Below are positions 24,735 through 27,473 of a stretch of DNA of 44,741 nt, one piece after another. The number at the start of each line of letters is the position of its first letter. Position 1 is the stretch's first letter. The translations under genes were made by a program, and so were the position numbers. The notes beneath the pieces were generated by a model, which made no database searches, was not told the origin of the DNA, and saw only the letters and a list, made by a program, of their open reading frames with translations. This DNA comes from Lachnospiraceae bacterium (GTDB taxonomy: Bacteria > Bacillota > Clostridia > Lachnospirales > Lachnospiraceae), in NCBI GenBank assembly GCA_017440045.1, contig JAFSIA010000056.1:1-44741 (forward strand), written 5' to 3'.

Positions 24735-27371
24735 CTATTTTCCCAGATAGTTTTCTTCCATATCCTTAGATATATTTAAAATTTCCATTTCAAGCTCCCT
24801 AGCCGACATTCTCCTAGCTCCTTCACCCCAGATTATCATCTGTTCAAGGGCATCTGACGTAGCTACTGTTACATCATTTTTCTTCCCAAGCTTATGAACT
24901 GCCTTTTCAATATACTGGTCTGCGGTTTCAGCCTCCTTGGTATATATAACGTGTATATTGTTATATTTTTGTACAGAACCTCTTCCACCCTGAACCTTGT
25001 ATGCGTCAAAAACTAATATAAGAGTCATTCCCTTATACCCTTGATAATTACACATAATATCCATAAGCTTCATTCTAGCCGAATCCAGATTAAGCTTAGC
25101 CAACTCCTTAAGCTCATTCCATGCAAAAATAATATTATAGCCGTCTACCAACAGATATTTGTCTTTAGATGGCAAAGTTTTTTTATTTTTTTCTATATAT
25201 CTTTGTCTAATCTTTTCATCTAATTTTGCGTTCTCCTCTCTTAGACGTTCTCTTTCCCTCTCTAACCTGTCATATTCCTGCAGATTATTGAAATCCTTGT
25301 TTCTGTCTATAGGACCGTAGGTTCTTTCAAATATTGCCTCTAACTCCTTGTCATTGTAGGTTATCTCCGGCACCTTCTTATTTGACTTTTCTTCTATAGA
25401 ATATTCTTCTTCGCCACTCTGTCTAACAATATGTCCTTCCACATTATCCAGTTGTATATGCTTATAATTGTCAACCTCATTCCAATCCACTACAAAGCCT
25501 GCTCCATGAGCACAAAAAACCGACCCCGTTGGATTGTTAATATCTGCCTCCGGATTATATCCCTTTTCCTCTATGATTTCATCAGCATTGTGGCATGGCT
25601 CATAACCTTTAAAATTAAGAAATAGCTTCCCTCTTCCACCTGTGTATGCATTAACCTCTGACTGATATTCTCGCATAGTAGCTACTGGCGCAACTCCTGT
25701 AATAATTGCCATATCGCCTTCCATATCCGGAAGATTATTTTTCCCACACATTCTTTGAATATCAGACAATGCTCTTCCCACAGCTGTAGACGGCAGCTCC
25801 AGTCTAAATTCATATACCGGCTCTAACAGAATGCTTTCCGCCTTCCTTAGTCCCTGTCGAACCGCCCTGTATGTAGCCTGCCTAAAGTCTCCACCTTCCG
25901 TATGCTTCAAGTGTGCCTTGCCTGCCACAAGAGTTATCTTCATGTCAGTTATAGCTGAGCCCGTAAGGACACCTCTATGCTCCTTTTCATATAAATGAGT
26001 CAGAATAAGTCTCTGCCAGTTTTTACTTAATTTATCTTCACTGCAATCAACATCAAACTTAAGTCCACTTCCCGCTTCTCCTGGTTCTAACAAAAGCTGA
26101 ACCTCCGCATAGTGTCTTAGCGGCTCATAATGGCCCACTCCTATAACTTTATCTTTTATACTCTCTTTATATACAATATTTCCAGAACCAAATTCCACCT
26201 GCAAACCGAATCTTTCTGATATAAGATTTTTAAGGATTTCTATCTCTATTTCTCCCATAACATTTGCATGTATCTCTGACAACTCCTCATCCCACCTTAT
26301 GTTAAGCTGTGGTTCCTCCTCCTGAAGCTGTCTAAGCTTTAACAGCATATTATGGACATCAATCCCTGCTGGTGGTATGATTCTATAATTTAGCACCGGC
26401 TCCAAATATGGCACTGACGCTTCCTTCTCTGCACCAAGTCCAGCACCAGCTGCTGTCATAGTAAGACCTGTGACAGCGCAGACTTCACCTGCTTCCACCC
26501 TATTCACACTGGTGAATTTGTCTCCTGAATACACTCTTATCTGGTCTACTTTTTCCTTATTATTCTGGTTTTCATCTGCGGTCTCATAGGTAATGTAATC
26601 CTTTACCTTTAAACTTCCACCAGTTATTTTCATATGAGTAAGTCTATTTCCTTGGTTATCTCTTGTTATTTTAAATACTCTGGCAGCAAATTCATCGCCA
26701 TAATTTCCTGCAGCTGTATATTTTCTAAAATCTCCCAAAAATTCTTCAATACCTATCCCCTTTAATGCGGAACCAAAATAGCAGGGAAATAACTTTCTCT
26801 CTTTTATAATATGGGCTATATCTTTATCATCAATAGTACCGCTCTCAAGAAATCTTTCCATTAAATTTTCGTCAAGAACTGCTATATCCTCATAGTCTAC
26901 ATTGTCCATATCCAAGCAACCTGACGAAAGTCCCCCCTGAAGGTCCTCCATAATCTTTTCCTTACTAAGCCCCTGTTGGTCCATTTTGTTTACAAAAATA
27001 AATGTAGGAATGTTATACCTTAGAAGAAGCTTCCACAAGGTCAGTGTATGTCCTTGTATCCCATCTGCTCCGCTTACAATGAGAATTCCGTAATCTAATA
27101 CTTGAAGAGTCCTCTCCATTTCAGCAGAGAAATCCACATGTCCCGGCGTATCCAAGAGCGTATAGCTAACACCATCCATAACAAACTGGGCCTGTTTAGA
27201 AAAAATGGTTATACCTCTCTCCCTCTCTAAGCTATATGTATCCAAAAAAGTATTTTTATGGTCAACACGCCCTAAATTCCTAATACTTCCTGTCGTGTAC
27301 AAAATATTTTCCGATAATGTAGTTTTACCCGAATCAACGTGAGCAACAATGCCCACACAAATGTTTTTCAT
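24735..27371 (-). CDS. EF-G/TetM-like GTPase fused to a YacP/Rae1-type NYN nuclease
   Basis: An 878-residue fusion. Residues 1-~640 form a translational GTPase: AHVDSGKTT (10-18), DTPGH (74-78), NKMD (128-131), then EF-G-like domains II-V. The tip region of domain IV (about 484-494, GKAHLKHTEGG) lacks the TetM-type tyrosine-serine-proline loop, so tetracycline protection is unlikely. A highly charged coiled coil (about 692-730) leads to an NYN domain (738-870) with acidic residues at D743 (VDGYN), D789 (VFDAY), D818 (ETADQY) and D840 (TSD). YacP/Rae1 of Bacillus cleaves mRNA in the ribosomal A site. ATG 27371 follows GGGAG; a longer reading is unsupported. It is monocistronic. Confidence 0.88.
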   Translation of the reverse strand: MKNICVGIVAHVDSGKTTLSENILYTTGSIRNLGRVDHKNTFLDTYSLERERGITIFSKQAQFVMDGVSYTLLDTPGHVDFSAEMERTLQVLDYGILIVSGADGIQGHTLTLWKLLLRYNIPTFIFVNKMDQQGLSKEKIMEDLQGGLSSGCLDMDNVDYEDIAVLDENLMERFLESGTIDDKDIAHIIKERKLFPCYFGSALKGIGIEEFLGDFRKYTAAGNYGDEFAARVFKITRDNQGNRLTHMKITGGSLKVKDYITYETADENQNNKEKVDQIRVYSGDKFTSVNRVEAGEVCAVTGLTMTAAGAGLGAEKEASVPYLEPVLNYRIIPPAGIDVHNMLLKLRQLQEEEPQLNIRWDEELSEIHANVMGEIEIEILKNLISERFGLQVEFGSGNIVYKESIKDKVIGVGHYEPLRHYAEVQLLLEPGEAGSGLKFDVDCSEDKLSKNWQRLILTHLYEKEHRGVLTGSAITDMKITLVAGKAHLKHTEGGDFRQATYRAVRQGLRKAESILLEPVYEFRLELPSTAVGRALSDIQRMCGKNNLPDMEGDMAIITGVAPVATMREYQSEVNAYTGGRGKLFLNFKGYEPCHNADEIIEEKGYNPEADINNPTGSVFCAHGAGFVVDWNEVDNYKHIQLDNVEGHIVRQSGEEEYSIEEKSNKKVPEITYNDKELEAIFERTYGPIDRNKDFNNLQEYDRLERERERLREENAKLDEKIRQRYIEKNKKTLPSKDKYLLVDGYNIIFAWNELKELAKLNLDSARMKLMDIMCNYQGYKGMTLILVFDAYKVQGGRGSVQKYNNIHVIYTKEAETADQYIEKAVHKLGKKNDVTVATSDALEQMIIWGEGARRMSARELEMEILNISKDMEENYLGK

Positions 27372-27402
27372 ACCATTCTCCCTCACACATAAAACTAAAA
27401 CC

Positions 27403-27432
27403 ATTATACACTAAGACGAAGTTGCAACGCAA
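27403..27432 (-). promoter_or_regulatory. Promoter of the GTPase-NYN gene
   Basis: The minus strand has TTGCGT (27427-27432), an 18-base spacer and TATAAT (27403-27408). The -35 lies inside a 10-bp perfect dyad, ACGAAGTTGC/GCAACTTCGT (27416-27425 with 27429-27438). Confidence 0.55.
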
Positions 27433-27443
27433 CTTCGTTTAAA

Positions 27444-27473
27444 CAAAAGAGGAAGTCCTGATGGGCTTCCTCT
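27444..27473 (-). terminator. Terminator of carB
   Basis: Stem GAGGAAG/CTTCCTC extended by GCCC/GGAC pairs (27449-27472), then TTTTG on the minus strand. Confidence 0.85.

Follow-up and report, generated by a model that had tools for sequence, protein, structure and literature searches.

Apparent relocation of the mRNA endonuclease Rae1 onto a translational GTPase in Lachnospiraceae

How the endonuclease Rae1 (YacP) finds the right ribosomes is, to our knowledge, an open question. A gene of a Lachnospiraceae bacterium gives this question a concrete form: in the window, by which we mean the whole stretch of 44,741 nucleotides that was analysed (contig JAFSIA010000056.1), a single open frame joins an EF-G-like GTPase to a Rae1/YacP-type nuclease (Table 1). 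What is such a nuclease doing at the end of a translation factor? We think it fairly probable, on the evidence of sequence comparison, that the protein represents its lineage's own Rae1, which has moved onto a translational GTPase and cuts mRNA on paused ribosomes.

The fusion architecture as such is already known. Atkinson 2015 (PMC4342817) reported, from ten species of Clostridiales, Tet proteins that carry an NYN domain resembling YacP, as a possible resistance mechanism; the original prediction had likewise spoken of similar proteins annotated in Clostridia. These Tet-NYN proteins have the same architecture as the protein of the window and very likely belong to the same family. This is the only literature on the fusion that we found, and Leroy 2017, Condon 2018 (on Rae1 distribution), Gilet 2025, Deves 2023 and Li 2013 may mention it. 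The portions of the Atkinson account available to us contain no comparison with standalone Rae1 and no treatment of origin or tail loss: as far as we have seen, the pattern of replacement, relocation and tail loss described here is new.

Table 1. Features of the fused gene and its upstream region; positions are those of the window.
Feature	Position	Strand	Remarks
Fused GTPase-NYN gene	24735..27371	-	878 aa + stop
Rae1/YacP-type NYN nuclease domain; D743, D789, D818, D840	24738..25154	-	Pfam, alignments
Charged linker, short conserved stretch around ELEAIFERTYG	25161..25457	-	Variable length among relatives
C-terminal extension of GTPase, GYxPCHN ... SVFCAHGAG ... W ... H	25458..25586	-	Conserved
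EF-G domain V	25587..25829	-	Pfam
EF-G domain IV	25836..26180	-	Pfam
Domain IV tip loop GKAHLKHTEGGDF, versus TetO/TetM GLYYSPVSTPADF	25884..25922	-	Alignment; K489 at TetM/TetO Pro509
EF-G domain III	26187..26402	-	Pfam
EF-G domain II	26442..26690	-	Pfam
G domain (GTP_EFTU); AHVDSGKTT, RGIT, DTPGH, NKMD, SAL	26727..27362	-	Pfam E 6.5e-49
Ribosome-binding site GAGGGAG	27378..27384	-	Read by eye
TATAAT -10 box, TTGCGT 18 nt upstream	27403..27408	-	By eye; predicted promoter, short leader
Terminator-like stem, then T-rich run; downstream of upstream carB-like gene	27450..27471	-	By eye

The open frame covers positions 24735-27404 of the minus strand and holds 889 residues from its first ATG, at 27404. 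This ATG overlaps the TATAAT box, the GAGGGAG motif lies 6 nt upstream of a second ATG at 27371, and homology begins at about the latter: the true start is thus likely the ATG at 27371, and the original prediction had the coordinates and the numbering over 878 residues right. Residue numbers count from this ATG unless stated otherwise; the start at 27404 adds 11. The frame is not a product of chance, since full-length relatives are numerous, at 47-60% identity: a scan of contigs confirmed 105 stretches and 80 were kept, most of them from Lachnospiraceae or from genera that we take to belong there.

Upstream of the gene, the TATAAT box at 27403-27408 is not among the promoter sites of a consensus scan, which found 9 sites against 10.0 expected over the whole stretch, and the terminator-like stem has a loop longer than the terminator scan permits. 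Neither inspection by eye nor the scan revealed a leader peptide or an attenuator upstream of the fusion gene. At 27416-27438, over the promoter, lies a 10-bp palindrome, perfect and with a loop of 3 bases, which was considered as an operator of the gene. It was rejected in that role because it recurs elsewhere in the genome, in seven near-copies with 2 to 3 mismatches (none in a reversed control), six of which lie outside open frames of at least 70 residues; the palindrome is more likely a small interspersed repeat, a shared operator being the other option.

The GTPase half has the series of domains of an EF-G-like translational GTPase, a G domain with intact motifs and domains II to V, as had been predicted from the letters of the window. 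Ten of the eleven G-motif positions checked are invariant in all of 111 fused frames (80 from the contig scan, 25 from a phylum sample and 6 others, not de-duplicated and with copies of the window excluded), and the Asn of NKMD is kept in 110, with one Thr. In an alignment of 87 sequences, counting that of the window, hardly any variation is seen in the tip loop HxKHTEGGDF or in loop I, GHxEPLRHYAEV, and the position that would correspond to His583 of EF-G holds His in 86. A second alignment holds 45 fused or split rows, and in it two genomes of one genus (G090 and G259) deviate in both domain IV loops: their copies, L140 and L143, have Gln for His in loop I and Tyr for His at the tip, keep both active sites, and are possibly a specialised version. 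The extension that follows domain V is 43 residues long and is also found in unfused relatives. Two Cys, one His and one Trp of the extension are present in 87 of 87 sequences; one of the Cys is kept in 42 of 45 in the second set, and one His is mostly Lys in unfused relatives. Together, these conserved residues might bind a metal.

The C-terminal half matches NYN_YacP in Pfam with an E-value of 1e-49 and 169 bits, against a curated cut-off of 24.6. The four conserved acidic residues that had been predicted along with this NYN domain are invariant aspartates: all 59 aligned sequences have D743, D789, D818 and D840, and so do all 111 fused frames, a count in which they are numbered D754, D800, D829 and D851. 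A position near D818 varies between Glu (88 of the fused frames) and Gln (23). When the nuclease half is compared by phmmer to solved structures, it matches YacP/Rae1 of Bacillus subtilis (5mq8, E 1.9e-27; also 5mq9), with which it shares NYN kinship, the acidic residues and the presence of a single copy per genome. The linker between the two halves is charged, as predicted, with 48% D/E/K/R in the window; for the coiled coil predicted there, the one sign is a weak leucine-zipper match in Pfam (E 0.26). Its length ranges from 52 to 149 residues in the 111 fused frames, with a median of 78.

Is the fusion a resistance protein? In the reading of Atkinson 2015, it would protect ribosomes against tetracycline, or another drug of the A site, and the nuclease would be an added mechanism of resistance. 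The closest solved relatives of the GTPase half are indeed TetO and TetM (phmmer, E about 1e-72), RefSeq labels several relatives as members of the TetM, TetW, TetO or TetS families, and, among the plasmid matches listed, 13 of 15 are unfused members of the subfamily on Ligilactobacillus salivarius megaplasmids. The likeness to Tet(M), Tet(O) and Tet(W) extends to the order of domains I-V and to about 29% identity, but the fusion has the extra C-terminal extension and a clade of its own: in a tree of the GTPases (62 rows, quick method, single model) the subfamily forms one clade, with support 99, apart from TetO/TetW and the Tet-like rows. The domain IV tip, AHLKHTEGGDF against YYSPVSTPADF, is not TetM-like, as the original prediction had it. 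The proline of TetM at position 509 sits in the drug site (PMC8161019); the fusion lacks it, and the corresponding position is Lys in 87 of 87 sequences, Lys (43), Ser (1) or Gln (1) in the second set of 45, never Pro, and Lys (8), Glu (2) or Val (1) in 11 unfused rows.

The NCBIfam equivalog tet_protect gives the window's protein 430 bits against a cut-off of 775, a value that does not by itself separate the groups, since the scored set held no known Tet protein as a positive control: within the subfamily, five unfused members reach 402-431 and a further fused protein 420, and the three Tet-like neighbours that were scored lie at 453-598 (L173 being at 598), also below 775. The manner in which the gene is carried also weighs against resistance. 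The fusion is present in 99 of the 120 genera sampled in the family, a copy with at least 80% coverage turns up in only 2 of 72,556 plasmid records, the leader is short with no attenuator seen, and there are no conserved gene neighbours, at most 10 of the 80 loci sharing one; the largest cluster of neighbours, of 58 loci, vanished once 173 frames overlapping the fusion gene itself were dropped. Judged from its sequence, the GTPase is not a typical Tet protein. The score, the Lys in place of Pro509 and the wide carriage make tetracycline resistance the less likely main role, and we regard the resistance reading as a whole as quite improbable.

The distribution of the two forms fits a nuclease half that stands in for the free enzyme. 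A phylum sample of 398 genomes gives a YacP match in 219 and the fusion in 28, in frames of 857-937 residues retrieved by a GTPase-specific query with a wide score gap. Each of these 28 has exactly one YacP match (the nuclease is seen in the same frame for 26, and taken from the length of the frame for G361 and G268); two matches occur in only two genomes of the phylum, G205 and G300, both without the fusion. The window's own genome, which is 74% complete, also has a single match. A sample of the window's family, which the relatives from the contig scan suggest to be Lachnospiraceae, with one genome per genus and 120 in all, has YacP in 110 genomes. In 99 of them it is an intact fusion of 848-1095 residues, a second search confirming the GTPase next to the nuclease in 99 of 99; it is standalone in six (G435, G410, G467, G401, G430 and G441), and broken or cut in five, namely G464 and G466 at contig ends, G501 by a frameshift, G424 and G497. 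Two genomes show two YacP rows: in G492 they are two pieces of one domain, and in G421 one is a fused frame and the other a fragment of 139 residues at the end of a contig. All these counts ignore kinship, except those made on trees.

Two of the broken cases deserve a description. The frame of G497 (L158) has 690 residues, with the G domain to domain III and the NYN domain but no match to domains IV and V; either the protein occurs shortened in nature or the assembly is at fault. In G424 (L155), GTPase and NYN domain occupy two frames whose overlap falls at the linker; the gene may have split, a frameshift site may lie there, or the sequence may contain an error.

Some observations count against our reading: the tip loops of G090 and G259 are altered, and each half can also be found alone. 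Two genomes without a YacP match, G357 and G312, have an unfused GTPase of the subfamily, which must therefore do some work by itself, and Rae1 does not need the GTPase, since of the 191 phylum genomes that have YacP and lack the fusion only 4 possess it (G306, G178, G202 and G284). One could also see in the fusion two independent enzymes in one chain, an arrangement that fixes their stoichiometry or their proximity to ribosomes with no coupling to GTP hydrolysis; the linker, by varying between 52 and 149 residues, speaks against rigid positioning, and the overlapping frames of G424 point the same way. We find this unlikely, given that 99 of the 110 YacP-bearing genomes of the family have the fusion intact, that GTPase and YacP are jointly absent from all ten family genomes without YacP (no GTPase match at 1e-24), and that tail shortening, to which we return below, is confined to fusions in the sets measured.

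Where did the nuclease come from? In B. subtilis, rae1 shares a transcript with rlmB (yacO), and loss of either has the same, non-additive effect (PMC6613710). Relatives of the window's bacterium keep rae1 after rlmB, as Bacillus does: the NYN gene directly follows rlmB in five of the six standalone relatives of the family, and lies elsewhere in G435. The window's own genome, which is the fusion genome inspected at this place, has the order ispF, cysE, cysS, mrnC, rlmB, a gap of about 50 bases, then another gene, with no rae1 after rlmB (rlmB was identified by TIGR00186, the other four by eye). Since the other fusion genomes have a single YacP match each, the place next to rlmB should be empty in them too.

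A tree of the NYN domains (75 rows, careful method) agrees with the loci. Fused, split and same-family standalone copies form one clade (100/98), within which the six standalone copies are a clade of their own (99/92), and 24 of 24 phylum standalone copies fall outside; the phylogeny of fused and unfused YacP that the original prediction called for thus puts the fused group with the standalone copies of its own family. Tree and loci together fit a single capture of the local rae1, with the six standalone copies as either the ancestral state or later releases, and the nuclease half looks like the Rae1 of this lineage, kin of the rlmB-adjacent rae1 of its relatives. In an ancestor, rae1 would have left the row cysS-mrnC-rlmB-rae1, or been copied and then lost there, and become the C-terminal domain of an EF-G-like GTPase.

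The recipient would have been a GTPase of a distinct subfamily, sister to unfused proteins of 650 residues and separate from TetO/TetW. These unfused proteins, annotated as 'translation factor GTPase family protein' on L. salivarius megaplasmids and in G306 and G178, are of the same GTPase subfamily and largely share the tip loops and the C-terminal extension with the fusion; they lack the nuclease, and form a sister clade except for one L. salivarius copy. In the GTPase tree the fused rows are one clade (support 100), which encloses this unfused plasmid copy and one split gene. The nesting of the megaplasmid copy suggests that its nuclease was lost after transfer. This protein, L174, is 49% identical, has the off-family tip loop KASNVHTVGGDF and carries the name tetracycline resistance. 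Of the six genomes with standalone Rae1, four have a sister-clade GTPase as well, either unfused or in fragments; G401 has none, and G441 only a Tet-like one.

A mobile or phage origin was considered and rejected. Two unannotated faecal records named 'Bacteriophage sp.' (MT835514 and MT835563, the latter marked UNVERIFIED) have near-full-length fusions, and are probably bacterial contigs.

The original neighbourhood of rae1 raises another possibility. Both mrnC and rlmB, beside which rae1 lies in relatives, encode rRNA enzymes. The fusion could be a factor of ribosome assembly, or of rRNA or tRNA processing, whose GTPase brings the nuclease to the maturing ribosome; a proposal cited by Atkinson 2015 (PMC4342817) has YacP acting in rRNA and tRNA maturation. 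However, descriptions of Rae1 itself make it an endonuclease that acts on mRNA in the A site (PMC6613710, PMC12320835), and in the window's own genome neither mrnC nor rlmB moved with the nuclease. We give this reading little credence, and keep to a relocated Rae1 that acts on messages.

The end of the nuclease domain may also bear a trace of the relocation. After the TSD motif, standalone copies have a tail of at least 61 residues in 29 of 29 measured cases (23 of 24 from the phylum, one being unmeasured, and 6 of 6 from the family), the 24 phylum copies being among the best-scoring matches, a choice that favours full-length ones; among the matches listed, standalone rows reach at least position 158 of the 166 of the profile. 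Of the fusions, 110 were measured and one was not, and 40 of the 110 have a tail of at most 50 residues, against 0 of 29 standalone copies (Fisher p 1.6e-5, without correction for kinship), with the threshold of 50 set after the window's value was known. Mapped on the tree, where 19 of 43 labelled rows are short, the shortening requires at least 10 changes.

In the window the tail is 38 residues long. According to the alignment, the full tail includes the position of R166 of Bacillus Rae1, and the change R166P behaves as a loss of function in B. subtilis (PMC6613710). To treat a tail with the R166 position as a criterion of the family is our own reading; such a tail is present in all measured standalone copies. 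In contrast to Bacillus Rae1, the window's nuclease is thus the C-terminal domain of a GTPase and does without the tail that bears R166. The loss of the tail may be neutral. The simplest reading, however, is that a role of the tail in docking or stability would have been taken over by the GTPase in fusions, and its repeated shortening fits delivery of the nuclease by the GTPase.

How would the relocated Rae1 work? Rae1 is described as able to cut mRNA in the A site, and its cuts free the site for tmRNA (PMC6613710, PMC12320835); published targets of the Bacillus enzyme include S1025, yrzI and, among the candidates, bmrC/bmrD (PMC10632193). Factors of the Tet type occupy a place that overlaps with EF-G and with the A site, and GTP hydrolysis is believed to bring about their release (PMC8161019). 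A complication absent from the original prediction is that a domain IV of the EF-G/TetM type and Rae1 should not fit in the A site together. Because the two would collide, we propose that they use the site in turn, and the variable length of the linker argues against a rigid placement of the nuclease. The GTPase would dock where the A site is free and use its domain IV tip and C-terminal extension to read the decoding region, and GTP hydrolysis would make domain IV withdraw. The nuclease, tethered nearby by its charged linker of 52-149 residues, would then enter the A site and cut the mRNA as Bacillus Rae1 does, leaving a truncated message for decay and for tmRNA rescue. Docking by the GTPase would also make the tail of standalone Rae1 dispensable, hence free to be shortened many times. 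This scheme of a GTP-gated mRNA cutter, in which the GTPase inspects the A site and hydrolysis hands the site over to its own tethered Rae1, is a tentative one, which we put at somewhat less than even. The original prediction, of a ribosome-surveillance or stalled-mRNA cleavage factor whose nuclease would be positioned by GTP hydrolysis, finds partial support in the sequence comparison.

That the fusion replaces free Rae1 in most of the genera sampled points to a delivery route, and the shortening of the tail in fusions offers a direct handle on what the tail of Rae1 does. The comparison also suggests that some genes of the fusion kind that are labelled as tetracycline resistance may be housekeeping translation factors; if so, counts of resistance genes are affected. 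And if the GTP-gated scheme is true, ribosome-dependent mRNA cleavage would be, throughout the family, the work of one GTPase-controlled protein, where Bacillus uses a free enzyme.
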